Positions 19,116-43,097 of a stretch of DNA of 43,634 nt are shown in pieces. Position 1 is the stretch's first letter, and every line of letters begins with the position of its first letter. The stretch comes from a virus: positions 1-43,634 of the IMG/VR virus record IMGVR_UViG_3300035698_011561. One strand, written 5' to 3'. Position numbers and translations under genes: made by a program. The notes beneath the pieces were generated by a model. It ran no database searches, had not been told where the DNA came from, and saw nothing but the letters and a program-made list of their open reading frames with translations.

Positions 19116-19125
19116 GGGGAATAGC

Positions 19126-19755: not shown

Positions 19756-19791
19756 TTGGAACACTTTGGAAACTTTTGAAAAGGGGATACC

Positions 19792-19992: not shown

Positions 19993-20001
19993 GGGGATAT
20001 C

Positions 20002-20628
20002 GTGGAATTAACCGAAAAACACCGGCCAAAGACGTTTGAAGAGGTGATAGGGCAGGAATTGGCAGTTAAGAAGATCCAGACAAAGGCGCGAAACGGGTAT
20101 GGTGGCTTGCGCTATTGGATTGCCGGGAAGTCGGGACAAGGCAAGACAAGCCTAGCGCGAATCATGGCAAGCTTGTTCGGCGGCATGGTGACAGAATACG
20201 ACAGTGCGGATCAATTTACCAAAAGCGAATTCAACCAATTGTCTCAGAGCTTCCGCATGAGTTCCATGTTCCGGCATACGATCATAATAAACGAATCACA
20301 CGGTATGCGAGCTCCGATTGTACGGCAAATGCTTGGCTTAATGGAGCGCATGCCAAAATGGGCTTTGATTATTTTCACGACCACGCTTGACGGTGAGGAT
20401 TTGTTTTCAGAGCAAATGGATTCCGGGCCTTTTGCGTCAAGAGTGACAGAGATTCACCTGGCGCAAAGAGGCCTTGCCGGGAAAATGGCGCTCCGTTGCC
20501 AAAAGATAGCGCGAGCGGAAGGCCTTGACGGGAAACCGATCAAAGCATACGAGAAACTCCTGTACGATTGCGGAAGCAATATGCGGAAGGCCTTGGAGAA
20601 AATTGACGCTGGCGAAATGCAAGATTGA
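20002..20628 (+). CDS. AAA+ ATPase, clamp-loader-like, second copy
   Basis: The product is 208 residues from a GTG start behind AAGGGGATATC. It has the same plan as the first copy: ELTEKHRPKTFEEVIGQE, Walker A GKSGQGKT (42-49), IIINESH, IIFTTT and the identical ending EKIDAGEMQD. Differences cluster in the loop after Walker A and before the lid, and one residue is deleted near residue 140. The duplication with retained catalytic motifs suggests hetero-oligomer formation or two separate targets, not a decaying copy. No DNA polymerase or clamp gene was found in this window. Confidence 0.7.
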   Translation: MELTEKHRPKTFEEVIGQELAVKKIQTKARNGYGGLRYWIAGKSGQGKTSLARIMASLFGGMVTEYDSADQFTKSEFNQLSQSFRMSSMFRHTIIINESHGMRAPIVRQMLGLMERMPKWALIIFTTTLDGEDLFSEQMDSGPFASRVTEIHLAQRGLAGKMALRCQKIARAEGLDGKPIKAYEKLLYDCGSNMRKALEKIDAGEMQD

Positions 20629-20659
20629 CTTTTACCTTTTGAAACACGGGAGAAATACA

Positions 20660-23298: not shown

Positions 23299-23530
23299 AG
23301 ACAAAACCGTATGGCAGGGGAAGGGGCAAATTCTGTATGGTCGTGCAAAGTTATTAAGGATTCGAGGTCCACGAGGTTCGGATTCATTTGACTTAGCCTT
23401 AATGGTTGTTGGGTTCTTTGAAAAATACGCTCATGGGTTCCTCACGCAAGGCGACGCCGACGATCTGTTATCTTGTGCCAATGCGATTATTTCCAAAGTA
23501 AAGCCAAAGGGGGAGGGAAAAGATGAGTGA
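23291..23530 (+). CDS. Hypothetical 79-residue protein
   Basis: The GTG at 23291 has AGGGG at good spacing, while an ATG 6 bases upstream is too close to the same site. The product (VSEDKTVWQGKGQILYGRAK...) has a basic N-terminal half and a helical second half (FLTQGDADDLLSCANAIISK). The family is unknown. Its end overlaps the recombinase start by 8 bases. Confidence 0.5.
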   Translation: MSEDKTVWQGKGQILYGRAKLLRIRGPRGSDSFDLALMVVGFFEKYAHGFLTQGDADDLLSCANAIISKVKPKGEGKDE

Positions 23531-24371
23531 GCCAACCCGCGAAGAACTAATTGCGAAGATGAAAGAAGCGGCTGAAAATACCGTTTGGCAACCGCCAGTT
23601 CCCAGAGGCAAACACACACTTTTGAAATTCGAGAACCTCGTCTCGCAGGTATTACGGCCTAGCGTGGAGGGGGGGAGGATGAAGATGAGTGATAAAGCCG
23701 TGCTCTACACAAGGTTCAGCCCGAGGCCAAATGCCGATGATTCTGACTCGTGCGAGAAACAGGATGAGATATGCCGGGAATACTGCGAGAAGAAAGGCTA
23801 CGAAGTTGTTGGCTATTTCGAGGATAAGAAGCTCTCGGGCGATGAAGCTGATAGGCCTGGCCTATGGGAAGCGCTGGGAGCGCTGAAGCGCGGTTATGTC
23901 CTTGTGGTGCGCTGGCGTAATCGGCTGGCGCGGGATGTTTATCTGTCGGAAGTGATACGGCGCCGGGTGAAGAAAGCTGGCGCCAGGATCGAGGCGGTGG
24001 AAGGCGATACAAACGGAGACAGCCCGCAAGATGTTTTGGTTCGGCAGATATTTGCGGCCATGTCTGAGTATGAGAAAAAGCTCATTGGGATTCGTACCAA
24101 ATACGCCATGCTGAAGCATCAGGCAAACGGCAGGATCATGGGCGGCGTGTTGCCCTACGGCTACAAGAAAGACCCAGACAGGACAGGCTACATGATACCC
24201 TGCCCAGCAGAACAGGAGGTTATCGGTGAGATTCGACAACTTGCGGTGGATGGTTATGGAGTGCGGCAGATCGCGGCCACGCTCGACATCATGGGCTATA
24301 TACCGCGCCGGGGCAAGATATGGAACCACAGGTTAATCAGCAACATCCTGAAACGGCAGATGGAGGTTTAG
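23523..24371 (+). CDS. Serine recombinase, short form
   Basis: The product is 282 residues from ATG 23523 (GGGGGAGGGAAAAG before it), or 228 from an internal ATG at 23685 that has its own GGAGG. The resolvase domain begins only after the internal start: AVLYTRFSPR (catalytic Ser66 in the long form) and RNRLARD (132-138) with its conserved arginines. A recombinase domain follows (NGRIMGGVLPYGYKKDPDRT, VDGYGVRQIAATLD). Large phage integrases have a zinc ribbon and coiled coil in addition, and are near 450-550 residues. This one stops short, so it may be an invertase- or resolvase-like enzyme or a reduced integrase. Confidence 0.8.
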   Translation: MSEPTREELIAKMKEAAENTVWQPPVPRGKHTLLKFENLVSQVLRPSVEGGRMKMSDKAVLYTRFSPRPNADDSDSCEKQDEICREYCEKKGYEVVGYFEDKKLSGDEADRPGLWEALGALKRGYVLVVRWRNRLARDVYLSEVIRRRVKKAGARIEAVEGDTNGDSPQDVLVRQIFAAMSEYEKKLIGIRTKYAMLKHQANGRIMGGVLPYGYKKDPDRTGYMIPCPAEQEVIGEIRQLAVDGYGVRQIAATLDIMGYIPRRGKIWNHRLISNILKRQMEV

Positions 24372-26800: not shown

Positions 26801-27089
26801 CATTCAGCCCTTTCTTTGGGTTATGTTCTCGCCATAGCTTACGAGCCGTTTCCTTACTTTTGTCTCTCCACGCGGGCCTAAATGGACGGGAAGCCATGCC
26901 CTCTTCATGGTAACGCTCACCACACCGCAAACACGTTCCACTGAACCCGTACCACTCCTCAAAAGTCACAACATGGAAGGTTCTTCGTTGGCATGTATCG
27001 CAGTCATAAACGCCGATAGATACATCAACTACAGTCGGCGTACACACAATACCCATATTGCCGTCAAGGTTTATCAGTTTGCATGCCAT
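26790..27089 (-). CDS. 99-residue zinc-binding protein
   Basis: The start at 27089 (MACKLINLDGNMGIVC...) follows GAAAGGATTGCCTG. Two cysteine pairs occur (YDCDTCQRR and TCLRCGERY), spaced as in a zinc finger or ribbon. The C-terminus is basic (RDKSKETARKLWREHNPKKG). It overlaps the end of the HEAT-repeat gene by 26 bases. Function unknown. Confidence 0.55.
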   Translation of the reverse strand: MACKLINLDGNMGIVCTPTVVDVSIGVYDCDTCQRRTFHVVTFEEWYGFSGTCLRCGERYHEEGMASRPFRPAWRDKSKETARKLWREHNPKKGLNDAV

Positions 27090-28047
27090 CAGGCAATCCT
27101 TTCGCTTCAAGCGGCCCCCCGCAGTACGGGCAATAAGCCATCTTGTTTTCGATTGGCGTACCGGCGTTCAGGCAAAAGGCATTACCGCATCCGGTATCCC
27201 AGTGGCCGTCGCCGTCCTCTGTCCATGTGCAGGTTTCGCGGTCACGCATCAGGCGTTCCTCGTTCCTTTCGATCTCGCCTAGCGCCCAAGCGGCCAGCCG
27301 CCGCACATCGGCATCCTGATCTTTGAGCGCCTCGGTAAGAGCCAGGACCGCCGTGGCCGACCCGATCTTGCCTAGCGCCCTAGCGGCCAGCCGCCGCACA
27401 TCGGCATCCTGATCTTTGAGCGCCTCGGTAAGAGCCAGGACCGCCGTGGCCGACCCGATCTCGCCTAGCGCCCAAGCGGCATACCGCCGCACCGTACCAT
27501 CCTGATCATTGAGCGCCTTGATAAGAGCCGGGACCGCCGTGGCCGACCCGATCTCGCCTAGCGCTTCGGCTGCCAGCCATCGCACATCGCCATATTCATC
27601 GCCATATTCATCATTGAGCGCCTTGATAAACCATGCTTCCGCTTTCGGCTGTAGTCCAACGTAATACTCTTTTAATTCACTCCAACACCAATCATCTTCG
27701 ATTGCCGTTGGATTGCCTCCTAACTCCGCCACCAGCAAACGAGCGAGGGTTGTTGTTAGGCCTTCGCTGCACAAGCAATCACGCGCTGTCTGTTTCATCG
27801 TCACATCCTTTTTACTGGCATCAGCAATATGGTCAGGCATCAGCTTGTCCTTTCTTTTCAGCACGGCTTGGTCGCTATTGTATTGTGCTATTATCCCACT
27901 CTCATAGGCATTGTAGGCCTCAATTTTGAATCTGTCATTTAGCGCCTCCAGTTCCTTCACCCGTGCTCGCAGCTGCTTTTGCGAATCAGCGCGGATAGCA
28001 ATTTCTTCTCGTAGTGACTTGATTAGCCTTTGCTGTTCGCATTGCAT
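27064..28047 (-). CDS. Composite protein: coiled start, HEAT repeats, zinc ribbon
   Basis: The product is 327 residues starting MQCEQQRLIKSLREEIAIRA. Residues 1-60 are coiled coil with RARVKELEALND. From about residue 145 four PBS-lyase-type HEAT repeats follow, each near 31 residues (SATAVLALTEALKDQDADVR, RLAARALGKIG), and the C-terminus has a zinc ribbon (CPYCGGPLE). Two internal segments look like former gene starts, each with its own ribosome-binding site: MPDHIADASKK and MKQTARDCLC (ATG at 27798, AAAAAGGATGTGACG before it). The gene therefore seems built from three once separate pieces. HEAT repeats bind proteins; their target here is unknown. Confidence 0.6.
   Translation of the reverse strand: MQCEQQRLIKSLREEIAIRADSQKQLRARVKELEALNDRFKIEAYNAYESGIIAQYNSDQAVLKRKDKLMPDHIADASKKDVTMKQTARDCLCSEGLTTTLARLLVAELGGNPTAIEDDWCWSELKEYYVGLQPKAEAWFIKALNDEYGDEYGDVRWLAAEALGEIGSATAVPALIKALNDQDGTVRRYAAWALGEIGSATAVLALTEALKDQDADVRRLAARALGKIGSATAVLALTEALKDQDADVRRLAAWALGEIERNEERLMRDRETCTWTEDGDGHWDTGCGNAFCLNAGTPIENKMAYCPYCGGPLEAKGLPDGMQTDKP
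27280..27590 (-). repeat. HEAT-coding tandem repeats of about 93 bp
   Basis: Three to four copies of a 93-bp unit follow one another; two central copies (around 27290-27470) are almost identical at DNA level, including the phrase ccgccgcacatcggcatcct. The identity implies recent duplication or gene conversion within the array. Confidence 0.8.
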
Positions 28048-30528: not shown

Positions 30529-31231
30529 GGTCAGCCCCTAGTTTTTCAAACTCAACCACCCACACCCACGGGTTCGCGTCCCAGCCAAAGCGCGGCAGAT
30601 CCTTTTTCTTGACCGTAGAATCCCAGAGCGGTCGGAAGTGCTCTTCCACAACGTCAACCAATCGGCCACCACAAGCCCCGCAATAACGTACTTGATCTAT
30701 AACTTGATCGTCTGGACATAGGCAAACGTGTCCCTTGTACGCGCCCTCAGCCACCGCATCCGCTTCGGTTATATTCTGCACCCGTTCCACGCGCACCGCC
30801 TTAACCAGCAAGTTGATTCTGCTTGCCCAGCGCGGCATGTGGATTGATGGGCGGCGATACCACCCATTCTTGCGGCACGAAGTCTTTTTTACATCCGCCA
30901 AAGCAGCATTATCCTCGACCGCATAATGCACCTCTTCCGTTGTTGGCTGAAATCGCCACTTTTGCTTTCCGGTTTCAGTCTTGCCATTAGTCACCCACAA
31001 CCCGAAACGAAAACGAGTCTCGCGAACCCACAATTGGCTTCCCGGTTTTCCGTATGGGCAGCGATGAAGTTTTCCAGAATAGTCGACAAACCCAGGACCA
31101 CACGATAGGCTTGTTCCCGTAAAGTCGTGCCAAATTGGCTGCGGCTTCACAACCCTCCGCGTCTGTGTCTTGCGGCCCTCCAGAATCGCCCGTACCATCT
31201 CGCCATTGAATAAAATCGGAAGTTCAGTCAT
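30521..31231 (-). CDS. ASCH-domain-like protein
   Basis: The product is 236 residues and begins MTELPILFNGEMVRAILEGR followed by KTQTRRVVKPQP, the opening of a family often listed as phage morphogenesis or ASCH domain proteins. ASCH domains are RNA-binding folds related to PUA. Two cysteine pairs (CLCPDD and YCGACGGRLVDV) near residue 170-190 may hold zinc. GGAG precedes the start, directly after a terminator-like hairpin. Its end overlaps the initiator gene by 8 bases. Confidence 0.65.
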   Translation of the reverse strand: MTELPILFNGEMVRAILEGRKTQTRRVVKPQPIWHDFTGTSLSCGPGFVDYSGKLHRCPYGKPGSQLWVRETRFRFGLWVTNGKTETGKQKWRFQPTTEEVHYAVEDNAALADVKKTSCRKNGWYRRPSIHMPRWASRINLLVKAVRVERVQNITEADAVAEGAYKGHVCLCPDDQVIDQVRYCGACGGRLVDVVEEHFRPLWDSTVKKKDLPRFGWDANPWVWVVEFEKLGADHA

Positions 31232-31243
31232 GGATTACTCCTA

Positions 31244-31299
31244 AAAACAGCCAACCCGGTGCTAACAGTCCACAGAGGTAGACATGAGGCCGGGCGGCT
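31244..31299 (-). terminator. Terminator-like hairpin directly before the ASCH gene
   Basis: AGCCGCCCGG and CCGGGTTGGCT form an interrupted 9-10 bp stem around a smaller inner hairpin (GTCTAC and GTGGAC, loop CTCT). The minus-strand sequence continues GTTTTT, then AGGAG and the ATG at 31231. A terminator in front of a gene's own ribosome-binding site can only allow expression if it is read through or switched, so attenuation is possible. Confidence 0.6.
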
Positions 31300-31339
31300 G
31301 AGTGTTAAGTTCTGGTCATAGGAGTCCTCTTTCGGAAAT

Positions 31340-31531
31340 TCAGTCCTGGCACTTGCGGCAGATAAGGACACCCTCTTGATCGGACTTGAAGAACGGATCA
31401 TCGACGAAGATAAGCTTTCCGCACCCTTCGCATGTGCCATATACCTCACGGTCATTGACTGCCGTGATTTGAGCCCCCGCTGGAACATCCTTGTATCCTC
31501 GGCACCTTCCCTCAAGCGTATATTCGATCAT
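31340..31531 (-). CDS. 63-residue zinc-finger miniprotein
   Basis: The start at 31531 has AGAAAGGAAACC directly before it; a longer frame reaches into the previous gene. The product (MIEYTLEGRCRGYKDVPAGA...) holds two cysteine pairs (TCEGCGKLIF, CRKCQD) near the end. It follows the coiled-coil gene by 10 bases. The 40 bases after its stop, up to the leader hairpin of the ASCH gene, hold no gene. Confidence 0.6.
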   Translation of the reverse strand: MIEYTLEGRCRGYKDVPAGAQITAVNDREVYGTCEGCGKLIFVDDPFFKSDQEGVLICRKCQD

Positions 31532-31541
31532 GGTTTCCTTT

Positions 31542-32477
31542 CTAGCTGAAGTCAGCGATTGCCGCGTCAATGGCATCGGAAACCGGGCCCAGGCGATTGT
31601 CGAGGTTTACCCGCAGAGCATCGTCTTTTATGCCTGGGGCTTCAGTGAGAACCTCTCTTTGAATATGAGTGAGGAATTCGACTATTCTATCCTTGTCCGG
31701 TCGCAATTCCTCTTCCCGCTTGGCCGCTATCTCGGCATCAAGCCGATCTATCGCTGCCTTCGCTTTCGCTTCCTTCTCAAGCTGCTCGCGCAGAACCTTG
31801 TCAGAAGCCTCTTTCTCAGCCTTCTCCTGCGCGCCCCTGAGCTTCTTCGCGGCCTCCTTGATCGTGGCCTCTTGGGCATTCAATCGTTTTTGAGTGTCCG
31901 CCTGGCGCTTCTCGTTGGCCTCCTGCTCCCGCTGCTTGTCCTCGAAAGCCGTGCGTTCCTCAAGGGCAGAGGTTAAGGTGTTACGTACAGACTTAATAGC
32001 TTCCGTTGCCGCGATAGTGAATTCCTGAAAGAACGATTCTTTAACCTCAAGGCCGTTCAGATAATTCAGCCTTTCCGTGATCTCTTCGGCACTGGCGGTC
32101 AGCTTCATCTCAGCAGTTGCGCGAATAGCCGCGATCTCCTTGTGGATATCCTCAACCCGCTCGGCCTCGATCCGTTCCGCCTCCTGTTCCTTCTCGTCAA
32201 CCTCTGCCTTGGTGGCCTTCAGGGGTTCCTCGACCTCCAGAATCAAGGCGGTAATGCGCTTGGCCTCTGTGTCCACCTTCTTGCCCCAGACCAGGGCATC
32301 AGCCTTCAACTCCTTGCGCTTCTTCTCGACGGTTGTTCGGAGCTTACGCACTGACGAGATTGCACGGGACACGGCAGCATACGATTGCTTGTCAACAATG
32401 ACCATGCCCGCGCACTTCTCTTTCATCTTCGCAATTTCTGCATCAGTGACGCTGTATTGCACAAGTTCTGCCGTCAT
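31542..32477 (-). CDS. DUF1351-like coiled-coil protein of the recombination block
   Basis: The product is 311 residues (MTAELVQYSVTDAEIAKMKE...). It is nearly all helix, with the coiled core at about 50-260 (SVRKLRTTVEKKRKELKADA, KAEVDEKEQEAERIEAERVE). Proteins of this plan, called DUF1351, lie next to annealing proteins in many phages and may organise recombination or replication. Its RNA leader element 1 ends in eight T residues, followed by GAAAGGAGAAGGCA and the ATG. Confidence 0.6.
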   Translation of the reverse strand: MTAELVQYSVTDAEIAKMKEKCAGMVIVDKQSYAAVSRAISSVRKLRTTVEKKRKELKADALVWGKKVDTEAKRITALILEVEEPLKATKAEVDEKEQEAERIEAERVEDIHKEIAAIRATAEMKLTASAEEITERLNYLNGLEVKESFFQEFTIAATEAIKSVRNTLTSALEERTAFEDKQREQEANEKRQADTQKRLNAQEATIKEAAKKLRGAQEKAEKEASDKVLREQLEKEAKAKAAIDRLDAEIAAKREEELRPDKDRIVEFLTHIQREVLTEAPGIKDDALRVNLDNRLGPVSDAIDAAIADFS

Positions 32478-32491
32478 TGCCTTCTCCTTTC

Positions 32492-32629
32492 AAAAAAAAG
32501 ACTGTGCTGGGTGGCCGGAATCGAACTGGCATCTACCCGCGCTTAGGATTATAAGCCCCAACTCACGGATCGCATGTCCACCTTAACTCGACGTCAAGCC
32601 AGTGCGCTCATGCTGCCGCCAGCACAGTC
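32492..32629 (-). ncRNA. tRNA-like leader element 1, with T-tract
   Basis: On the minus strand the element begins GACTGTGCTGGCGGC and ends CCAGCACAGTC, an 11-bp outer stem (about 108 bases inside), then eight T. Inside lie a T-arm-like hairpin (GCCAG, loop TTCGATT, CCGGC, one mismatch), ACTGGC/GCCAGT as an alternative stem, and an anticodon-arm-like hairpin (TGGGG, CTTATAA, TCCTA). The ribosome-binding site of the coiled-coil gene follows at once. A canonical D-arm is missing, so it is not a normal tRNA gene. Confidence 0.65.
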
Positions 32630-32636
32630 AAACTCC

Positions 32637-32704
32637 AAAACAGCCCCGGCAACTTCCGCTACAAGCGGCGCTTGACAGCTAGGCCTTATTCGCTGCCAGG
32701 GCTG
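32637..32704 (-). terminator. Terminator after the annealing protein gene
   Basis: CAGCCCTGGCA and TGCCGGGGCTG form an 11-bp stem (one U-G pair) starting 7 bases after the stop of the 300-residue gene, with an inner hairpin CAAGC/GCTTG, and TTTT follows. It directly precedes leader element 1. Confidence 0.65.
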
Positions 32705-32710
32705 AAAGAA

Positions 32711-33613
32711 TTACAGTTCGTCGCCTGCCGGTGGCGGTGGCGTATCATCCGAACGGCCCGGCGGCGTGAGATTCTGGATAATATCGTCGTATTCGTCGCG
32801 CTCCGTGCCGTTCGGCTTAATGTGCTTCCAGATGACAAACGCCTGCTTGTCACTCAGTTTCTTGGCACTGCGCTTACCCTTGACAAGCTCCCCCTTCTCG
32901 TTCTCCCAAGAAGTAACTTGCTCCAGAATGCTCGCGGCAATTTCCTTGTCGCCACCGCAGTCAGCAAGGATCTGTTTGCCGATGTTCTCCTTGGCTACCT
33001 TGGCCTTTTCATTTTCCTCGGCCCCGGTGCTTTCGGAACTGTTCTTGCTGGTTTTGTACTCAATAGTGTCAGCCTTGTTCTGGTCGAAGCCAAGACGCTT
33101 GAAGTCATCCCAATTGTAGCCGTTCAGGCCGAACAGATGGCGAATGCAAGCTCCGCGCCAGTTTGCCCATGCCTTCTTCCTGACCTCGATCTTGAGTTGC
33201 GTGGTAGTTTGAGGGCGGCCCTTGAAGAACTTATCGGCGCTGTTGCAGCCACCAGTAACCATAATGGATTGACCCATCCAAGATGCCTCACCCTCGATGA
33301 TTACCTCATACAGACGTACCCCGCTGTCGGGGTCATCTTCCCACCCAGACAGCATTTCCGGCTTGCTATAGGATACACCAGCAGCGCGAGCAATCTTTTG
33401 GGCTCCTGAATCACTGACGTATGGCTTGCCCCCGAAATCCATGATGTCTTTCTCAGTGCAGACCTTCAGCAGCGTCGGCACAATTCGCTTGATCGCATCA
33501 GTCCTCAATTCAAGCGCCTGGGTGAACTCCTTGATCTTCGCCAGTTCGTTGCTTACCTCTGGCTGTACCACTACCGATGTTTCCGTTGGGACTACTTCTT
33601 CATCTTCACTCAT
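32711..33613 (-). CDS. Probable single-strand annealing protein
   Basis: The product is 300 residues. A helical N-terminus (VVVQPEVSNELAKIKEFTQA) leads to GGKPYVSDSGAQKIARAAGV and the strand-rich core ending KKAWANWRGACIRHLFGLNG, a plan like Rad52/Erf-type annealing proteins, then an acidic tail (TPPPPAGDEL). Its neighbours are a Cas4-like exonuclease, overlapping by 8 bases, and a DUF1351-like protein, the normal company of phage recombination genes. GGAGGAG precedes the start. Confidence 0.55.
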   Translation of the reverse strand: MSEDEEVVPTETSVVVQPEVSNELAKIKEFTQALELRTDAIKRIVPTLLKVCTEKDIMDFGGKPYVSDSGAQKIARAAGVSYSKPEMLSGWEDDPDSGVRLYEVIIEGEASWMGQSIMVTGGCNSADKFFKGRPQTTTQLKIEVRKKAWANWRGACIRHLFGLNGYNWDDFKRLGFDQNKADTIEYKTSKNSSESTGAEENEKAKVAKENIGKQILADCGGDKEIAASILEQVTSWENEKGELVKGKRSAKKLSDKQAFVIWKHIKPNGTERDEYDDIIQNLTPPGRSDDTPPPPAGDEL

Positions 33614-34511
33614 TTTTCAACTCCTCCATTTTCCGCCAACGATCTTTCCAGTTCTTCCGTTTTCCGTTATACATCCAGCCGCCAATTACGGCTTTCGCGG
33701 TCTTTGTTTTCTCCAGCTGCGCCTTCAGTTCCTTCTTGAAGATTTCGTATTGCCACGCATCCAAACTTAGCAACTGCATCCTCTCAACCCTGGCGATCAG
33801 TTCCTCGTCAACCACGATCTCCATGGGCTCCCGGCTGATCGGCGGCACACAGATATGGAAGAACCCGCAGCCTTCGCAGTAGTCAGGATCTTCAGTGTAG
33901 AAGTCAGGATATGTCTCGTCCTCAACATGCTTGTTTATCCGCTCACAGCGCTTCAAAGTCTCTTCCGCCAGGCAGAAGTCCAGTTCCCAATCAATCTCTT
34001 TGGGGCGCCCATTGTGCTTGTTTATCAGTACCCATACGCCACGCGGAATCTCCATGCCGAGGCAATAGATGTTGAGTTGCGGCGCGTAATTCACGCTCCA
34101 GAAATACTTGTTGAAGTCCTCTGCCGTGTGCGTCGATTCCCAGAGATGGGAAGCCATGGTCTTAACTTCTAGGACCGCCGTGATTTCACCATTGCTTATC
34201 ACGCCGTCAACATGACCGTTGCAGAGAAGCTTGTTCTTGGCGCGGTAGGTGAATTGCTCTTCTTGGCGTAAGACTTCATATCCAGCATCGACCAGCAATC
34301 GCCTGACCGGCTCTTCCCATACCCGTCCGGCATTGAAGGTGTATTGCAAGCCGACATCGTGAGGCTTCTTGTGTTCCCAATGCGTCCTTGCGTAGACCAG
34401 CTTTCTTTCGCACAAATCGCCTATGGCGGACGCCCGGTTGGCATGGCAAGGGAAGTTCTTGATTTCCTTACGCATGACCTTATCACAAGCTTCAGGGATA
34501 TTAAACATCAT
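33606..34511 (-). CDS. Cas4/RecB-like Fe-S exonuclease
   Basis: The start at ATG 34511 follows CCGGAGACAGCCG; a longer TTG start at 34529 is less likely. The product is 301 residues with PD-(D/E)XK nuclease motifs: D102 (GHVDGVI), E115 and K117 (AVLEVKT) and Q145 (YAPQLNIYCL). Cysteines C34, C212, C215 and C221 (C...YCEGCGFFHIC) fit the iron-sulfur site of Cas4 and AddB nucleases. It likely resects DNA ends for the neighbouring annealing protein. The start overlaps the end of the preceding gene by 11 bases. Confidence 0.8.
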   Translation of the reverse strand: MMFNIPEACDKVMRKEIKNFPCHANRASAIGDLCERKLVYARTHWEHKKPHDVGLQYTFNAGRVWEEPVRRLLVDAGYEVLRQEEQFTYRAKNKLLCNGHVDGVISNGEITAVLEVKTMASHLWESTHTAEDFNKYFWSVNYAPQLNIYCLGMEIPRGVWVLINKHNGRPKEIDWELDFCLAEETLKRCERINKHVEDETYPDFYTEDPDYCEGCGFFHICVPPISREPMEIVVDEELIARVERMQLLSLDAWQYEIFKKELKAQLEKTKTAKAVIGGWMYNGKRKNWKDRWRKMEELKNE

Positions 34512-35034
34512 CGGCTGTCTCCGGGGCAAAGCGGTAGTTATGGAGAGGCAAGAGTAAAGACCGCATCATAACGCAGTCAACCAGTTCGCAGGGTTCTAAG
34601 ATGTGAGTGTCCCAGGCAAGGCAACCTTTATCCAATACATCTACCGCTCTCTTCCCTTGAGCCTCCACCAACGCAAGCGCCAACTTCTTGCGGCCCTCCT
34701 CGGTGTTGCCGAATTCCTGCTCCCAGGTGGGCGTGAGGGTGAGGTGATCTTCGGAATAATCACCCCAATAACCTCCCTTGATAAAAGTAAGACGGTAGGT
34801 GTCATTATTGTGTACGGGGACAATATCTATAAAAGCCCAGCCAGGTACACCGTCACCATCTGGTATAGCAAACACTGTCTCCCCCACCTTGTACTTCGGC
34901 GCTGGCTTCGGCTCGGGTTTCGGCGGGGGCGCGAGTTCAGATATCTTTTCGATAGTGAAAGCGAACGGAAAAGTGATCCAGATTTCATGCTCAAGGCCAC
35001 ATTCGCATTTGAATTTTCCCTGTGATTGTTTCGT
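34501..35034 (-). CDS. Hypothetical 177-residue protein with an ACG at its start position
   Basis: The frame is open from 35034. Its leader TTTTTTTTGAAAGGAGAAGG, then CA, is the same as that of the coiled-coil gene, but the codon at the start position is ACG where the other gene has ATG. The next possible start, GTG at 34887, has no ribosome-binding site and would remove 49 residues. The product begins TKQSQGKFKCECGLEHEIWI (one cysteine pair), has a Pro-rich linker (APPPKPEPKPAPKYKVG) and a beta-rich second domain (VFAIPDGDGVPGWAF). The family is unknown. Confidence 0.6.
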   Translation of the reverse strand, partial: TKQSQGKFKCECGLEHEIWITFPFAFTIEKISELAPPPKPEPKPAPKYKVGETVFAIPDGDGVPGWAFIDIVPVHNNDTYRLTFIKGGYWGDYSEDHLTLTPTWEQEFGNTEEGRKKLALALVEAQGKRAVDVLDKGCLAWDTHILEPCELVDCVMMRSLLLPLHNYRFAPETADDV

Positions 35035-35048
35035 TGCCTTCTCCTTTC

Positions 35049-35173
35049 AAAAAAAAGACTGTGCTGGGCCGGATTCAAACCGACGGACCCCAGATGGCAT
35101 ATTTAGGTCAGGGCTTCGCTCGTCTCAATCTGGACGTGCCATTACCCTACGCTTTCACGCCGCCAGCACAGTC
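35049..35173 (-). ncRNA. tRNA-like leader element 2, with T-tract
   Basis: The element begins GACTGTGCTGGCGGC and ends CCAGCACAGTC (11-bp stem), followed by eight T. The stem contains a perfect seven-pair acceptor-like segment (GTGCTGG with CCAGCAC and a following A) next to a T-arm (GTCGG, TTTGAAT, CCGGC), as in the acceptor half of a tRNA. The inner part has another layout: ATGGCA/TGCCAT encloses a 7-bp hairpin (GCACGTC, GACGAGC, one mismatch), and CCAGAT/ATCTGG is an alternative. No standard anticodon arm is visible. Confidence 0.65.
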
Positions 35174-35191
35174 AAAAGATTTCTTCTCGTC

Positions 35192-35602
35192 TCAGTCGTA
35201 ATGCTCTTCCAGTAGATTTTCCGGCGTATTCTCCACACCCTCAACAGTCACGAACCCATCGAGAGCAAACAATGTCTTCGGGGAAATCTCAACGTCCGCA
35301 GGGATCTCCACCGGCTCTGTCTTGACCTCGATATCCGTTGCCATCAACTCCATGAACGCCTTGACGTACTTCGGGAACTTCTCTTTCATGTCCGGGTGAA
35401 TCTCGAATTGACCTACCTCGTTCGTCTCCCCGTGTTCCTTAATCAGCTTGTCCCGCTGCTCCATAACCAATGCCAGTTCGTCACCAAGAGCCTTGGCAAG
35501 ACGCGCCAGCTTGATCGAGATTGCAGCTTTAAGCGCCGGGATCTCCATCAACGCCGGTAACGCTTCCTTCATGTTGAAAATCTGTTCTGCCTTGACCTTC
35601 AT
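35192..35602 (-). CDS. Hypothetical 136-residue protein
   Basis: The product (MKVKAEQIFNMKEALPALME...) is helical at first (ALKAAISIKLARLAKALGDE, LALVMEQRDKLIKEHGETNE), then has a beta-type end (TEPVEIPADVEISPKTLFAL). The ribosome-binding site GAAAGGAGAAAGAA directly follows leader element 3. Proteins of this style are found near phage recombination genes, but no family is certain. Confidence 0.55.
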   Translation of the reverse strand: MKVKAEQIFNMKEALPALMEIPALKAAISIKLARLAKALGDELALVMEQRDKLIKEHGETNEVGQFEIHPDMKEKFPKYVKAFMELMATDIEVKTEPVEIPADVEISPKTLFALDGFVTVEGVENTPENLLEEHYD

Positions 35603-35616
35603 TTCTTTCTCCTTTC

Positions 35617-35716
35617 AAAAAAGACTCCGACGGACCGGAATCGAACCGGCACAAGGAAACCGCCATTAAGAGGAGTCGAATCCCATGTGCGCCCCAACCA
35701 GAGCGCCGCCGGAGTC
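35617..35716 (-). ncRNA. tRNA-like leader element 3, with T-tract
   Basis: The element is 94 bases between GACTCCGGCGG and CCGTCGGAGTC, which pair over 11 positions (one G-U), followed by six T. Inside are a perfect T-arm (GCCGG, TTCGATT, CCGGT), adjacent to a 7-bp acceptor-like segment as in tRNA, a hairpin GCGCTC/GGGCGC with loop TGGTTG that resembles a D-arm, and GCACA/TGTGC. A normal anticodon arm is not seen. It starts 6 bases after the stop of the 99-residue gene. Confidence 0.65.
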
Positions 35717-35722
35717 AAAAGA

Positions 35723-36022
35723 TTATTTGTCCTCAAGTTCATCTGCGGTTTCGCGCAGCAACTCCATAAGTGATATCTTAACCCTGGAGACCTTGTTTCT
35801 TACTAAGTCTGAGAATTCTTCGTCACCGAGTTTAAGATCATCTTCTGCCAGTTGAAAATGAACGCAGAGGGGAAAGTTCGCAATGATAACATGATCTCCG
35901 ATTCTCTTGTTTTCCGTTGGAATTATCTTATGGTGTACTTCGGCGAATTCCGGCAACATTTCCCTGATCTTGAGCAGTTCCTTTTCTATCAAATCCCTCT
36001 TTTCAGATTCACTTCTCTCCAT
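35723..36022 (-). CDS. Hypothetical 99-residue protein
   Basis: The product (MERSESEKRDLIEKELLKIR...) is highly charged, helical at both ends (LMELLRETADELEDK), with a central beta-type part (GDHVIIANFPLCVHFQLA). The start follows AAGGATGTAATT. Its last 15 bases of context, across the stop codon, are identical to those of the giant gene upstream (AAAAGATTATTTGTC on the plus strand). The family is not recognised. Confidence 0.55.
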   Translation of the reverse strand: MERSESEKRDLIEKELLKIREMLPEFAEVHHKIIPTENKRIGDHVIIANFPLCVHFQLAEDDLKLGDEEFSDLVRNKVSRVKISLMELLRETADELEDK

Positions 36023-36034
36023 AATTACATCCTT

Positions 36035-36138
36035 AAAAAAACCCCTCCTGCGCCGACTGCCAAGCCGCCAAGAGGGGTAAACAGCATGCGCCGAATTCGA
36101 GCGGGTGCCGTTTGGGGAAAATCAAAGGGGCGGCAGTC
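36035..36138 (-). terminator. Leader with strong terminator and alternative pairing (element 4)
   Basis: A 10-bp stem (ACCCCTCTTG, CAGGAGGGGT, one U-G) with an 18-base loop and seven T precedes AAGGAT and the ATG at 36022. GGCAGTC in the loop can pair with GACTGCC at the element's start (36132-36138), extended by GCC/GGC, so the loop could form a pseudoknot or an alternative fold. Element 4 shares the GACT...AGTC frame with elements 1-3 but has no clear T-arm. The rest of the 190-base gap up to the giant gene (36139-36212) shows no gene. Confidence 0.6.
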
Positions 36139-36212
36139 TTATTAGACAGCAACAGAATACACTGGCATTTCTTCTTCGTCAAATGAAAATTCAGAAAAAG
36201 TTGAAAAAAAGA

Positions 36213-39200
36213 TTATTTGTCTTTCAGCCACCTCCGCAATCTACCAAGCCTTCTGCGGAAAGGGGCTACTCGACTTCTCGAATAAGTGCGGCTTGCCTTC
36301 TTGCGGCGACTCTTCCAGTATTTTCTAAAGGCAGCATTGGCGGCTTCGGGAGTGATTCCTTCTAAAGCCTCCCGTGCCTTGATTTGAGCCTTCAGATTTT
36401 TGCCAGTGAGTGCATATACCATACGCCCAGCATGCAGTTGCTTTGCTTCGTCAACCGCCTTCAATGACTCGGCCTCCAAGTGACTAGAATACGCTAAAGG
36501 CCCATCATCCCATTTTATACGCTTCATGTCTCTTAGCAGTATTTTAGCTCGTTCAGGCCCGGTAGCAGCCAAGTATTCTGTTCTTGGCCCATATGTGCCT
36601 ACGCTCTGACCGAGCAACGCCAACACGGACACTGCTGTCCCCTTGGGGATTCCCTGCGCTACCATTGAATCCCTGACTTCACGTGTCGACATAGGCACGA
36701 ATAATCCACCGATCAGTGAGGCTGGAGTCTTCTTTTCACCCACTACGTTCTTAAACTTACTTAGTGACGTTACGACGGCTCCTGGAATTGGAGCCAACTT
36801 GGTGCGGAGAAACCTGAGACCAATAGTTCCCCTTGTGTCACCCTTAAACCCACTGCCATCCAGCTTCTTTATTTCACCAGTGACGGAGCTTTTGGTTTCA
36901 CCAGTGTAAAGGCGGGTAGCCAGAACGATTGCCTGTGATAAACCAAACAGCGGATCAATTCGCGTTTCGCCAATCTTGATTTTCATAAAATCAGAAGATC
37001 TGGGGTCAAATTCTATTGTCGGCCAATCGTCATCATCTGCCCACAGTGAAAACACAGCCATGAGTGTACCAAGCCAAATAGCCGTACCCGCGAATGACCT
37101 GGCATATTCAGCCGCAATAGCCTTCTTCACCCTCATACTGGTCTTCATAAATGGAAGTATGGCCGGTGTGGCAAGGTACTGGAATCGTGACAATACATAT
37201 CGCGGCGCGAAAAACACAAGATTCATGTTTGCCACCGCCTCAAGTAGATTGCTTGGGTGTGCTATCCCCTCGCCGGGAGCCTTAAAGCTGGCCCTACCCG
37301 TAGCCATATTAACAAAATTGGCAATTACCTTCCCTTCGTCAAGCGTAACGCGGCCACCCTTTCCGATATTGGCTACCATTAACTTGAATAGGCCGAATCT
37401 GAGGTTATTTAAGAATGTGATGAAAGCGCGGCCACTGGCAGCCACGATGGGAACCTTTCTTGCCACCCTTCCCTGAAACGCCTCCTCCTGATTGACGAGT
37501 ACCCCGTCACTTTCAGTGATTGATAGCCCCACCGTTTCCGCAAACTGGCCCAGCGGATGGTTGCGTATCTCTTCTGCTGAATCAAACTCAGCTTGTTTAC
37601 TTACTAAGGCTTGCAGCATTTTCTTAGAAGCCTCTGCGGCCAATTTAGGATGCCCGGCAGCCACCACGCCTCCCTGTCGAAATGCTGATAAGTCCGCAGA
37701 TGTCATTATGGCGCGAGATAAATGCGCTGTCTCTCGCATGGCATCATACGCTTTTTCTCCTGGACTCAAATTAGCAAATTTGTAATCAGCTAATTTTCCG
37801 TGGAAATCAGACTTAATAAGCTCCAACTGACGCTTCAGTTTCCGTTCGGATTTTGATAGCTCACGCGGCTCCTTCTTCTTCGGAGCAAAGTCTTCCTCTG
37901 CAATCCGCGTCTGATAATCAGCGATACGGCGACGGAGATTTGCCTCATAATTGCGACGGTTCCTTTCCTCCACTGACATCTTTGGGTTTGCCGCTGCGCG
38001 AAGTGCTTCTCTCTGAGCGCGAAGGGCATCAAGTCTTGCCCGCTTGGCATCCAACTCTGGCGTGGACAACTTCGGTGGCTGCTTGCGGGGCGCAATATCG
38101 CCTTCCCCCAACCGCTGCTCAAGGTCGGCAATCGCACGATCCAGCGCATTGCTGGCAGCGGCGATTTTCTGTTCTTGTGTTGCTTCCCTGGCCGGGAACA
38201 TCTGACGATGAAATTCCATCAACGCATCCCGCTCGGCCCGCAAGGCCGTCAGTTCGCTATCAGGCTTGACGCCCTTGCGTTCACGGACGATACGTTCTTT
38301 ATTCTCGATCTCCCATGTTAAGTCAGCAATCCGGTTGCGCGTAGTAGTCTTTGCGGTTTCAAGTGCCGACTTCAACTGAGCCTCGGGGTTGGTTGTATCA
38401 AAGCCGCCACGCTTCTTCGCCTCATTCACCAACTGAATCAATCTGCGTTCTTCGTTAGTCGGTGTTCTGCGCTCTTGCCCAGTCTTCTTCGGCGCTTGCC
38501 CGGACTCCATATCTTCCAACTTGCCAAGCTGCTGTAATTGTCCATTTATGTCACGAATGACCTGAGCTATTTCATCCTTCGATAATGGAGAAAACTTCCC
38601 ATATCCACTCATGGCGTCCATCGCCTCTTGCCGAGTTAGCTCAGGGACCGACTCCTGCAATGCCTCATGGACGGCATCAACAATCTGGTCTCGGTCGCGC
38701 ATACCCTCCTCAACTAGTTGGCGCTGAATTATTCGCGCCTCGCGGGCTATTCCCCTGCTGTCTCCCGCCTCTAACACCTCTGGTCGCACCCCACCCCATA
38801 TTGCCCCCAAGTGGGGCTTAATTTTATTGCCAAGATCAGTAACCATCCACCTAGACCACTCAGCAAATGTGCGGGCTCCAGCCTCCACATGGAAGCCACC
38901 AATGATGGCCGCGTCTTTGGCTAACCTGGGGTCTAGGCCAGCACTAAGAGTACCCATAGACTTACGAAGGCGATCTCTGGCAGAGTTGTAAGAGCTTTTA
39001 GTGAATACTGTATTGTTCTCACCGCGAACCTTAGCCTTGCCCTTACGTTGCGGCTTGCGCTTCTTTGCCGCCTTGATATCAGCATCAAGTTGAGCCTTCA
39101 GCTTGGCATCACGCTCTAGGGTTTCGACCTTGCCTGATTCATCAGCCAGTAGCGTTTCAAGGGCTTTTATCTTCTTCGCTAGTCCAGCTATTGCACTGTG

Positions 39201-42200
39201 CTGTTCAGTCGATAGTGCTTTTCCGGTGTTTGCAACTCGCGCCTTACGCACCATGCCAGCCAGCGAGAAATCTTTGGCTAACGAAATCTGGAGGGCGACA
39301 CCTGCTCTCCCCCACTCTCGGCGAGCAGATGATTGCGCGGCGTCCTCAATCTTGGCAAGGATCGCCATCTGCCCCGTGGCTGCTGTTTGTGCAACAGCCG
39401 TGCGCGTAGCATCGCCGGAATCAGCCGCATCAGATAAATTATTAGATAGGGTTTCAAACTGGTTGCTGGCATTACGGTAATGTATCTGCAGGAGGGCGAC
39501 TTCCCGGGCACTCAGAATGCGTGAGGAGTCTGTTAATTCGTTGACTAACCTTTCCCCAGCCGAGGAATCAGAGGACAGCGTATCGCTTGCCTCATTTAGC
39601 CATTGCTGCTGACTCTCCGGGTCTACACCCTCAAGCTCCCCGGCCTCACGAAGTCGGCGAAGTTCATTGACAACTTCGTTTTTAATGCTGGTAATAGGTA
39701 TGTCCTGCTGCTTGTCAATGGCAGATTGCTCATTCTTAGCCTGCACATTATCCCATATCTCCTGGAGGTGAGGTTTGACGGCATCGCCAACATCAGAGAT
39801 CATGTTCTTGGACCATGCGGCGAAGGTTCTGGCTCCAGCTTCGATGTGGAATGCCCCAATAATGGATAATTCTTTAACCATACGGGGGTCTAGGCCAGAT
39901 TTGAACTCACCGCCCAGATCTTTGAGCCGTGCCCGCGCTTCGTTATGCGCTGACTTTGTAACTATAGTATTGCTTTCACCATAAGTCTTCTCTTTCGCCT
40001 CAGATGCCATGATATCTTTGATTTTCTTCCCCGCCTTTTGAATGTACTTCCTGTCACCTATTTTGCTAACGGCTGACGGAGACATGCCTAACTCTTTGGC
40101 TATTTTCGCGTATGATTTGCCCTCGCTTATCCCTTGAAGAATTTTCCGGGCATTCTCGTTTTTGATACCGGCAACCACACCTTCGATTTCCTTCTGCTGC
40201 TCCGTGGTGGCTTCCTCAGAGACAACGGGCGGGGCTTCCTTCTCCGCAATCGCCTCGATCTCTTCTCCGACCGCGACTTCCTTTCCGGCCATGAATTTAT
40301 TGGTCCACTTCAGGATTTGACGCCTTGCGGTTTCCCTCATAAACGCATCACGATCCCCGCTTTTGGGATCATGCTTCTGGCCAGCAAGCAAAGCTTCTGT
40401 GGTGGCAGTGGTTACGGCATCATCTAGGTTTCCCTTACTGAGTCCGCGCTCTCCTGCAAATTTCTTGGCAAAGCTTTCAATTTTGGCATATTGGGCCTCA
40501 GAATCATCGGCCTCTTTTTTCGCATCCGTCTTCTTCTTCACCTTGGTCTTCTTCGGGAGGGTATATTCAGCGTCCTCTCTCTTGGCGGCAATGGCCTTCC
40601 GAAGATTATCGTTGGTTAGCGCCGTTATCTGGTTTTTTGTGCCGAGTTTCAGGCGGGTTGCCTCTTTAACCAGCGCCCCTCTTTTGGCTGGTTTTACTGA
40701 CGGCGCGACCTCCAAGCCCTCAGATTTCAGTATTTTGTTGATTATATCCGAACCAATATCCCCTTGTCTGACATCAACGCCAGCGGCTCGGGCACGGTCA
40801 AACAATTCTTGTCGGGGGAGTGCTTCTAGGGATTCGGCTGTAACTCTTGGGCCAGTTTCGCTTGTTCCAATATCAGTTTCCGCAACCGCTCGTCCCTCTT
40901 CTTCGACTTTGGAAGCTTTCTGATCTTCTCGATCAAGAGGTCTTGTTTCAGAAATTCCTTCTGAATCGCGCTGGACTTCCGTTTCTCCACCATATTTGGT
41001 CCTTTCACTTGCATAATACTCCATGGCTTTGTCCATATCGCCTGTTTTTTCCAGGACATCCGCGAAACCATTAAGTATCACAGTCAACTTTTTGCCGTTA
41101 TCTTCAATGCTACCAAGCTCTTGCGCTGATAAATCATCGCTGTCAATGCGGTCAAATTCAGCGGTAAGTTTTTCGGCTCCCTCAACTCCAAGGACGTCTT
41201 CTTGCGCCTTCGCCCTTTCCCGCCAACGCTGTTTGCGAACCTCGTCAGCCTCCTTTTCCGCCTGATCGGACTTGATGGGAGCCTCAACCTTGGTCTCTGG
41301 GGCGGCGCTGGGGGCCGCTTCCTGCCCCGCTACTGGCTTCTGGGCCTCCGGGGGTGCCTCAGCTACCTTTTCCGCTTCAGGAGCGATTACGGGGGCCTGG
41401 GGTGGCGGTTTAACCCCTTCTGGAGCCTCATGTGTGGGTTCTGGTGCCACGTCTCCCGGCTCCGCCAATTTGGTTGCAACGGCCCGCGCACCCCCTGACA
41501 CCCCACCAACAAGCAAAGTCTGCAAAATAACGTCCAGGGCGCCCTCTTTCAATGCCTCTGGGGAGAGGGCATTTGGATCCACGCCTGAATAATAGCTGTT
41601 TACGTTGTCCATCAACTCGATCAACAGTTCTTCCGGCAGTTCTGCCAGGGTAGTAATGCCGATCTGCTTGAGCGCTGATTTAGCGACTGCCTTGCCAGCT
41701 ATTGCCGACTCAACGCCGCCAAGACCGATTTTGTTGAATCCGGCTGTTATCAACCCCTCGATGGCGGTTGCACGGGCTGCATACAGGTACAGGTTTTTCC
41801 CCTCTAGGCCCGCGTCCTTGCCCTCAGTGAGCGCTTGGTTGCCACGAATAGCGGCTTGACCGCTTATTACAAAAGCTGTCCCGAATGGAGCGGCTGCTAC
41901 AGCCGGGAGGATTGACCTACCAGCGCCACGAAATGCCCGCTGCATCCTTTTTCCTAAAAAGTCGTCGGGCCTAACACTGCCTTCGGCCATGGCCTCAAGT
42001 TTGTTTGTAAACCTATTGAACTCATCGGGCAAATCTTTCGAGATGGTTGGGTCTGGGACTATGCGGGCGAGTAGCGAAGCGATATCTCCACCAGCCTCCA
42101 CCGCTGAGACAAAGAAATTACGCAACCACTCATTGCTTGATAACCTTTTTGATTGTTTCTCAAAGGCAGCGATACTTTCGCCTTTGGCCTTGCCTAGCCT

Positions 42201-43097
42201 ATGGTACATGGTCTGAAATATATTCTCCCATCCGGCAGGAACATTTGTTTGATTGTAAATCTCGTTAAGGGTAAAAAGTCTTTCTTTTACACTTAAATTC
42301 GGGTCATCTCTTACTCTGATGTATTCCTGTATTTGGGGGTCATCAGGATTACTCCTTAGCTTCTCAGTGAATATTGCCTCTCGCAACGCCTGCATCCCCT
42401 GCTCTATGTTTTTCCCGCCAGCTACGGATTCTTGTGCTACAGCAACAAGGGTACGCATCCTCTCGGCATCTGGACCGTATTGAGCGACAACTTCAGCGCC
42501 GATCTTTGTAAACTCCTTATCATTAGGGTCAGCCTTGAAGCGCTTCGCGTAATCGCGGAGATATTCTACCGCTCCCTGGTCGCCATCCTGTGAGCGCCTG
42601 AAAAGATGATTTAGGGCAGCACTACGGTTAGCGGTATTGCTCTCGACATCAACCTGCGCTCTTTGGGATATAGCTTGCTCATCGGTTGATAATGTGCTAG
42701 AAAGATCCTTTATTCTGGCCGCTATTGCCTTCCGCTCCGGCCCTTTCATATTCGGCAGACCGGCTTTTAACCAATCCTTCCGACTCGGATCTTTCCTGAT
42801 GACTAGCGTTGCCGCTTCCTCTGGATTACTGGTTATCCACCCGCGCAAGCCTTCATCGGTTTGTAACCGCTCGCGCTGAACATCGCGGTCAGGGCGAACC
42901 TCTTGCTGCTCAGGCCCACTCGGGACGCCTTCGCCGTAATCTGTGAACTGCTGCGCCCACTCAAAGTTACTCAATTTCTCCGGCTGCTCTTTTGGAGCCA
43001 CCGCCTGCTCTTGAGGCTCGGCAATAAACTGCTGCGCCCACTCAAAGTTACTTAGGCGTCGCGGTTCATCTTCAGAGACTTGGTTGGTTGCCGTCAT
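36213..43097 (-). CDS. Giant polyvalent-type virion/ejection protein, 2294 residues, with sigma-like segment
   Basis: The order of parts is: twofold LSNFEWAQQF motif (15-24 and 42-51), helical region, hydrophobic Gly-rich region (about 390-560), Pro/Ala-rich linker, two SAP/Rho-N-like helical pairs (about 755-795, 805-840), a sigma-like segment (about 868-1030), a duplicated 80-residue domain containing HIEAGARTFAAWS and HVEAGARTFAEWS (about 1040-1115 and 1358-1435), coiled coils (1500-1750), and a conserved C-terminal part with SADLSAFRQGG (about 1800), a membrane-like helix (about 2000) and RIDPLFGLSQAIVLATRLYT. Such layouts are known as phage polyvalent proteins, which travel in the particle into the host. 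AAGGAAATATTAA precedes the start, which abuts the previous stop. Confidence 0.7.
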   Translation of the reverse strand: MTATNQVSEDEPRRLSNFEWAQQFIAEPQEQAVAPKEQPEKLSNFEWAQQFTDYGEGVPSGPEQQEVRPDRDVQRERLQTDEGLRGWITSNPEEAATLVIRKDPSRKDWLKAGLPNMKGPERKAIAARIKDLSSTLSTDEQAISQRAQVDVESNTANRSAALNHLFRRSQDGDQGAVEYLRDYAKRFKADPNDKEFTKIGAEVVAQYGPDAERMRTLVAVAQESVAGGKNIEQGMQALREAIFTEKLRSNPDDPQIQEYIRVRDDPNLSVKERLFTLNEIYNQTNVPAGWENIFQTMYHRLGKAKGESIAAFEKQSKRLSSNEWLRNFFVSAVEAGGDIASLLARIVPDPTISKDLPDEFNRFTNKLEAMAEGSVRPDDFLGKRMQRAFRGAGRSILPAVAAAPFGTAFVISGQAAIRGNQALTEGKDAGLEGKNLYLYAARATAIEGLITAGFNKIGLGGVESAIAGKAVAKSALKQIGITTLAELPEELLIELMDNVNSYYSGVDPNALSPEALKEGALDVILQTLLVGGVSGGARAVATKLAEPGDVAPEPTHEAPEGVKPPPQAPVIAPEAEKVAEAPPEAQKPVAGQEAAPSAAPETKVEAPIKSDQAEKEADEVRKQRWRERAKAQEDVLGVEGAEKLTAEFDRIDSDDLSAQELGSIEDNGKKLTVILNGFADVLEKTGDMDKAMEYYASERTKYGGETEVQRDSEGISETRPLDREDQKASKVEEEGRAVAETDIGTSETGPRVTAESLEALPRQELFDRARAAGVDVRQGDIGSDIINKILKSEGLEVAPSVKPAKRGALVKEATRLKLGTKNQITALTNDNLRKAIAAKREDAEYTLPKKTKVKKKTDAKKEADDSEAQYAKIESFAKKFAGERGLSKGNLDDAVTTATTEALLAGQKHDPKSGDRDAFMRETARRQILKWTNKFMAGKEVAVGEEIEAIAEKEAPPVVSEEATTEQQKEIEGVVAGIKNENARKILQGISEGKSYAKIAKELGMSPSAVSKIGDRKYIQKAGKKIKDIMASEAKEKTYGESNTIVTKSAHNEARARLKDLGGEFKSGLDPRMVKELSIIGAFHIEAGARTFAAWSKNMISDVGDAVKPHLQEIWDNVQAKNEQSAIDKQQDIPITSIKNEVVNELRRLREAGELEGVDPESQQQWLNEASDTLSSDSSAGERLVNELTDSSRILSAREVALLQIHYRNASNQFETLSNNLSDAADSGDATRTAVAQTAATGQMAILAKIEDAAQSSARREWGRAGVALQISLAKDFSLAGMVRKARVANTGKALSTEQHSAIAGLAKKIKALETLLADESGKVETLERDAKLKAQLDADIKAAKKRKPQRKGKAKVRGENNTVFTKSSYNSARDRLRKSMGTLSAGLDPRLAKDAAIIGGFHVEAGARTFAEWSRWMVTDLGNKIKPHLGAIWGGVRPEVLEAGDSRGIAREARIIQRQLVEEGMRDRDQIVDAVHEALQESVPELTRQEAMDAMSGYGKFSPLSKDEIAQVIRDINGQLQQLGKLEDMESGQAPKKTGQERRTPTNEERRLIQLVNEAKKRGGFDTTNPEAQLKSALETAKTTTRNRIADLTWEIENKERIVRERKGVKPDSELTALRAERDALMEFHRQMFPAREATQEQKIAAASNALDRAIADLEQRLGEGDIAPRKQPPKLSTPELDAKRARLDALRAQREALRAAANPKMSVEERNRRNYEANLRRRIADYQTRIAEEDFAPKKKEPRELSKSERKLKRQLELIKSDFHGKLADYKFANLSPGEKAYDAMRETAHLSRAIMTSADLSAFRQGGVVAAGHPKLAAEASKKMLQALVSKQAEFDSAEEIRNHPLGQFAETVGLSITESDGVLVNQEEAFQGRVARKVPIVAASGRAFITFLNNLRFGLFKLMVANIGKGGRVTLDEGKVIANFVNMATGRASFKAPGEGIAHPSNLLEAVANMNLVFFAPRYVLSRFQYLATPAILPFMKTSMRVKKAIAAEYARSFAGTAIWLGTLMAVFSLWADDDDWPTIEFDPRSSDFMKIKIGETRIDPLFGLSQAIVLATRLYTGETKSSVTGEIKKLDGSGFKGDTRGTIGLRFLRTKLAPIPGAVVTSLSKFKNVVGEKKTPASLIGGLFVPMSTREVRDSMVAQGIPKGTAVSVLALLGQSVGTYGPRTEYLAATGPERAKILLRDMKRIKWDDGPLAYSSHLEAESLKAVDEAKQLHAGRMVYALTGKNLKAQIKAREALEGITPEAANAAFRKYWKSRRKKASRTYSRSRVAPFRRRLGRLRRWLKDK

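Follow-up and report, generated by a model that had tools for sequence, protein, structure and literature searches.

The window analysed here is the whole of a 43,634-base IMG/VR virus record (IMGVR_UViG_3300035698_011561, unclassified virus), in which a run of minus-strand genes, encoding a Cas4-type exonuclease (33606-34508, minus strand, phrog_1990, 6e-30), a DUF1351-like protein, a replication initiator and a DnaB-like helicase, also carries structured RNA elements, three of which (E35.6, E35.1 and E32.5) contain a tRNA-type T-arm. A preliminary description made from the sequence had reported a series of five elements in this gene run, and all five stretches do fold, end in a minus-strand T-run and sit after a stop codon and ahead of the next Shine-Dalgarno sequence (SD). 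The five are nevertheless of two kinds, since three are tRNA-like and the stretches 36035-36138 and 31244-31299 are plain hairpins without a T-arm, so that a joint covariance model of elements 1-4, as had been proposed, would combine unlike structures. The T-arm character of the three had gone unnoticed, and one terminator-like hairpin (32641-32704) was missing from the series; this brings the terminator-like hairpins of the gene run to six, of which three are tRNA-like.

The three tRNA-like elements all lie on the minus strand and share the same order, in which an 11-base-pair (bp) outer stem is followed by T6, T8 or T8, the sequence GAAAGGAG and a gene. E35.6 (35617-35716) has its outer stem at 35706-35716/35623-35633 (GACTCCGGCGG/CCGTCGGAGTC), its T-arm at 35634-35650 (GCCGG TTCGATT CCGGT) and T6 at 35617-35622; E35.1 (35049-35173) has its outer stem at 35163-35173/35057-35067 (GACTGTGCTGG/CCAGCACAGTC), its T-arm at 35068-35084 (GTCGG TTTGAAT CCGGC) and T8 at 35049-35056; and E32.5 (32492-32629) has its outer stem at 32619-32629/32500-32510, its T-arm at 32514-32530 (GCCAG TTCGATT CCGGC) and T8 at 32492-32499. 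As in a tRNA, a 5-bp T-arm with a TTCRANN-type loop (TTCGATT, or TTTGAAT in E35.1, which thus reads TTTGA) lies next to a 7-bp acceptor-like stem, directly inside the 3' strand of the outer stem, with one A-C mismatch in the T-arm and a CAC spacer of 3 nucleotides (nt) between T-arm and outer stem in E32.5. The remaining four pairs of the outer stem are GACT/AGTC, at the place where a tRNA has NCCA (discriminator plus CCA). In all three elements AGTC is paired to GACT and the free 3' discriminator/CCA end is absent, which excludes an ordinary tRNA 3' end. Without the T-run the elements measure 94-130 nt, and several arms are enclosed within the single outer stem. The block of T-run, GAAAGGAG and start is common to the three (repeat family D8), with the SD at 35609-35616 for gene 35602-35192 (136 amino acids, phrog_1401, function unassigned), at 35041-35048 for gene 35034-34501 and at 32484-32491 for gene 32477-31542 (311 amino acids, with relatives in F116-type phages, one of them annotated DUF1351). 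These genes are all minus-strand, and the distance from stem to start codon is 20-22 nt. The SD claimed after every element is present, whereas the gene start is irregular after E35.1, where no ATG, GTG or TTG stands at the expected distance and the sequence reads GAAAGGAGAAGGCA-ACG, compared with GAAAGGAGAAGGCA-ATG in the sister gene after E32.5. The frame is open from this ACG to 34501, and the ACG may serve as the start codon or result from a mutation or an error of assembly. Judging by sequence, E35.6, E35.1 and E32.5 are one family of tRNA-like domains between genes.

The exceptional character of these stems was assessed by scanning both strands of the whole window for stems of 8 bp or longer directly next to TTTTT, with dinucleotide shuffles as control. 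Only five sites passed, namely 35623-35716, 35057-35173 and 32500-32629 with 11 bp, 36042-36077 with 9 bp and one at 10553 on the plus strand with 8 bp, against 1.0 site per shuffled window at 8 bp or more and 0 at 10 bp or more. A scan for a T-arm, an extended stem and a T-run recovered exactly E35.6, E35.1 and E32.5, with 0 hits at 10 bp or more in 100 shuffles. The T-arm is already present in the unconstrained minimum-free-energy fold of E35.1, and the four-armed folds containing it lie 2.1 kcal/mol above the best fold in E35.6 and 1.7 kcal/mol above it in E32.5. When E35.6 is compared with the other two, four of the seven acceptor pairs differ, each with both sides changed and none broken (C-G/G-C, C-G/U-A, G-U/C-G and C-G/U-A). 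Across the three copies 47 of 48 cells are paired, a share that falls to about 42% or less when the partner is slid by 1-3 columns. These double changes suggest that the pairing is maintained, as support rather than proof, because they come from three sequences of which two are nearly identical there. The ends of E32.5 and E35.1 are nearly identical and their interiors are no more alike than shuffles, so the ends are the part that has been kept.

None of the known RNA classes compared accounted for the elements. ARAGORN found no tRNA gene in the window and Rfam gave no match there at the gathering score; the top-ranked Rfam family of the region was tRNA-Sec, a tRNA family with an unusually long acceptor stem, at 24.8 bits (E 0.14) for E35.6 and weakly, at 18.4 bits, for E32.5, with the gathering score at 47. 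A canonical tRNA was rejected on these two results and on the lack of a free 3' end. The covariance models of C4 RNA, yjdF and T-box likewise stayed below gathering throughout the window, and at E<=10 they had no hit listed for 30900-36500. True phage tRNAs whose leader and trailer pair into a T-run were observed elsewhere (L055 Arg, L171 Met and L134 Gly); their extended acceptor stem abuts the T-run, sometimes before an SD, as in the window, but ARAGORN recognises them as tRNAs and their D and anticodon arms are normal, which sets them apart from the window elements. Such genes lend some colour to the idea that the three elements are decayed phage tRNA genes that have lost the anticodon half and survive only as handy terminators, and an anticodon-like loop of 7 nt, CUUAUAA, is still present in E32.5. 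This origin appears quite unlikely, as the acceptor pairs are maintained by double changes instead of being decayed, and the SD and flanks common to the three copies point to a duplicated working cassette. A tRNA fragment serving as attP was also rejected: the tRNA-like attP fragments known from viruses such as halovirus HF2 (PMC8707807) similarly place tRNA 3'-half sequence within a virus genome, but an attP occurs once, close to the integrase, whereas the three copies in the window lie some 8 to 12 kb away from the recombinase gene (23523-24371).

Comparable elements were sought in other phages by IMG/VR pattern scans, which selected the T-arm consensus and the T-run, so that these two features carry no weight there and the outer helix is the informative part. 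Among 72 sites that were not ARAGORN tRNAs and had a T-stem, a helix score of at least 10 was reached in 10 against 0.5 expected with the upstream sequence shuffled, and a score of at least 9 in 16 against 1.7, a few of the high-helix sites coming from related contigs (L122/L156 and L207/L225). Elements comparable to those of the window occur in L287, L246, L122 and L116, mostly immediately before a gene, and are unannotated. Most IMG/VR sites are flanked by two genes of the same direction, the second of which starts 19-37 nt past the stem, a distance that is biased for the sites of the third scan, which demanded a nearby AGGAG, while L122, L049, L116, L037 and L039 come from scans without that demand. 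L207 and L225 carry an element of about 220 nt with a Leu-type D-arm-like start, a T-arm and an 11-bp outer stem before a gene, and most differences between the two preserve pairs of the predicted L207 fold. In 101 loci (1.24 Mb) that had not been picked by T-arm, L287 (6386-6525) was the only site with the full order of T-arm, 10-bp stem, T-run, SD and ATG, and this phage shares a phrog_874 gene with the window. Sites of the same unselected loci with 9-11-bp stems and no T-run occurred at about shuffle frequency and were discarded. Moreover, in the unselected locus L307 (531-690, plus strand) a 22-bp helix (-79.6 kcal/mol) closes a T-arm but no T-run follows, and the homologue of this element in the Pseudomonas phage Orimi01 (L363, PP179326.1; host P. 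syringae 7C), the nearest named carrier, is 74% identical and retains a 20-bp helix and the T-arm, with two double (compensatory) changes in the helix, so that the element is conserved in P. syringae phages. Nine pairs of the complete L307 fold are lost in Orimi01, so that clear conservation is limited to the outer stem and T-arm; the Orimi01 element is unannotated and stands 41 bases before a gene, beside a divergent repressor-like gene. Searches aimed at relatives of the window elements themselves gave little: DNA patterns of the element ends matched only chance or unrelated hairpins, neighbour-protein queries (Cas4-like and DUF1351-like) returned none, a structural-protein query returned three short contigs that all lacked the early region, and megablast and distant blastn against annotated phages found no relative of the elements.

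The G+C-rich 11-bp stems of the window elements run directly into T6-T8 as those of intrinsic terminators do, but the loops they enclose are 72 (E35.6), 95 (E35.1) and 108 nt (E32.5) long, compared with the short terminator loop of 3-8 nt. Because the stem abuts the T-tract exactly in all three copies, as terminators need, and early phage genes normally have terminators in front of them (PMC9378689), we tentatively favour the reading, which we would call nearly but not quite probable, that the three are tRNA-like domains in which the lengthened acceptor stem also serves as a leaky intrinsic terminator. The T-arm would stack on the seven-pair acceptor-like stem, which GACT/AGTC would extend to end exactly at the U-tract; the domain would fold behind RNA polymerase, and the long stem and U-tract would bring about intrinsic termination, giving the mRNA of the preceding gene a defined 3' end. 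Some polymerases would read through, so that the next gene is expressed and expression is stepped down along the operon. Folding of the large loop would be aided by the compact half with the T-arm, to which tRNA-handling enzymes such as RNase P may dock, and the interior would be free to vary. Long operons with several internal terminators are also known (PMC8955417). The earlier statement that a terminator stands before every gene survives as anatomy, in that terminator-like leaders precede several genes, but it was overstated, because an intergenic terminator equally follows the preceding gene and lambdoid phages normally place terminators in front of their early genes (PMC9378689).

Several points weigh against termination as the role of the elements. 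The loops far exceed those of classical terminators; the T-run right before the SD could instead be a ribosome-binding enhancer; and E32.5 lies a few bases past a hairpin terminator, which would make a second terminator there redundant. Termination is also not common to all such elements, because the tRNA-like element of L307 and Orimi01 has a 20-22-bp stem and no T-run, and no close relative carrying the window elements was found. Judged by analogy, the strongest rival is that they are cis-tRNA translation leaders, in which a tRNA-like fold before the SD would engage the ribosome and raise translation of the next gene, with the U-tract as a single-stranded standby or enhancer; we consider this somewhat unlikely. 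The yjdF riboswitch is such a tRNA-like leader, and authentic tRNAs grafted before an SD raised translation 2- to 6.3-fold, the ACCA being dispensable with little loss when changed (PMC9142559). The order of tRNA-like domain, spacer, SD and open reading frame in the window agrees with those tested constructs, the T-loop and the lack of a usable CCA end are features shared with yjdF and the grafted leaders, the distance from stem to start in the window and in most relatives is consistent with it, and the L307/Orimi01 element, which precedes a gene without a T-run, fits a leader better than a terminator. On the other hand, the stem stops exactly at T6-T8 in all three copies in terminator-like fashion, and the window elements, unlike yjdF, have an 11-bp stem leading into a U-tract, recur within one gene run, give no Rfam yjdF match and show no sign of a ligand.

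A phage RNA handled by the tRNA machinery is the C4 antisense RNA of phages P1 and P7, and by comparison the three elements may be processing signals or released small RNAs, if RNase P (and RNase Z), on recognising the T-arm/acceptor stack, cleaved the polycistronic mRNA and freed a tRNA-like small RNA, which we regard as unlikely. RNase P measures the T-arm/acceptor stack (PMC4919913), and the 5 + 7 bp of the window elements equal the tRNA distance; C4 RNA, phage mRNAs and operon mRNAs are processed by it (PMC11143913). The predicted cut would place U at -1 in the elements, with G at +1 in E35.1 and E32.5, and a TATAAT found 3-10 nt ahead of the element in L037 and L287 (three bases before it in L287) would suit a separate transcript. 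The cut site is, however, buried in the fully paired 11-bp stem and a 3' RCCA is lacking; a small RNA is further disfavoured by the lack of a conserved interior as active part and by antisense matches that reach at most 12 exact nt in the window, and the elements differ from C4 in having neither an Rfam match nor an antisense target in the window. The terminator, leader and RNase P readings are not mutually exclusive.

Antitermination of the put or N/Q kind, which the preliminary description had suggested, would have the elements make polymerase ignore terminators, and several terminator-like hairpins in a single gene run, together with a promoter-like TTGACG-17-TATTCT ahead of the hairpin at 36035-36138, could be taken in its favour. 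Promoter-like matches in the region number 18 against 12.8 expected, which is not clearly above chance, and neither an antiterminator protein nor a nut-like site was recognised. The HK022 put RNA resembles the elements, as does lambda nut-N, in being structured RNA of an early phage operon, but it is about 70 nt long, consists of two stem-loops downstream of an early promoter, after which polymerase ignores terminators, and has neither a T-run end nor a T-arm (PMC9378689). Its antitermination works through the zinc-binding domain of the RNA polymerase beta' subunit. The window elements lie between genes, reach 94-130 nt before the T-run in which they end and hold their arms, a T-arm among them, within an outer stem, so that put was rejected and antitermination as the action of these elements, whether put-like or protein-directed, is very improbable.

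tRNA-like RNAs of phages and tRNA-like mRNA leaders are already known kinds, although very few tRNA-like domains of bacterial mRNA leaders are known, chiefly yjdF. The combination of a T-arm domain with an over-extended acceptor stem running into a T-tract before a gene, repeated within a gene run, was not met in Rfam or in the searched literature, in which such phage elements are not described (few subscription papers were covered). There is a real chance that a larger class lies behind the elements. It is possible, if still doubtful, that many kinds of phages carry undescribed, fast-diverging cis-acting tRNA-like RNAs with a T-arm and over-extended acceptor stem before a gene, acting on termination, ribosome recruitment or both, three of which would stand in this gene run. 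If unrelated phages do repeatedly use such domains, a widespread regulatory or punctuation device would have been missed by tRNA finders and Rfam, and such domains would offer a direct, easily tested system for a tRNA fold in mRNA acting on polymerase, ribosome or RNase P. Since unannotated elements of similar build are present in unrelated phages, they may be a little-noticed phage way to punctuate or tune operons.

The other hairpins of the gene run, all on the minus strand, differ in quality. Most hairpins of the region fold with z-scores of -2.9 to -3.6, against only -1.3 for 36035-36142. The long outer stem ascribed to every member is present as 11 bp in the three tRNA-like elements; the stem of 31244-31299 is bulged and fails the stem scan. 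E36.0 (36035-36138) contains the 9-bp terminator-like hairpin 36042-36077 followed by T7, without a T-arm, and its alternative stem, GACTGCC (36132-36138) with GGCAGTC (36055-36061), is 4.7 kcal/mol less stable; it was rejected as an attenuator on this difference and on a fold hardly better than shuffles. E32.7 (32641-32704) is a 13-bp terminator-like hairpin with TTTT and no T-arm (z -3.5), directly before E32.5, and E31.2 (31244-31299) is a bulged hairpin with T5 and no T-arm (z -2.9), before gene 31231-30521.

Further features were observed around and beyond the elements. The same sequence, GACAAATAATCTTTT, with the stop codon TAA within it, ends two neighbouring minus-strand genes at 36207-36221 and 35717-35731. 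None of 50,697 phage records closely matches the right half of the window, and nine proteins of the structural region have no PHROG match. A 2294-amino-acid protein encoded at 36213-43097 (minus strand) matches DarB-like antirestriction and endolysin-annotated profiles. In addition, 93-bp tandem repeats occupy 27270-27629 within gene 27064-28047, and a duplicated stretch at 19117-20644, with copies about 876 bases apart, lies in plus-strand clamp-loader-like genes.

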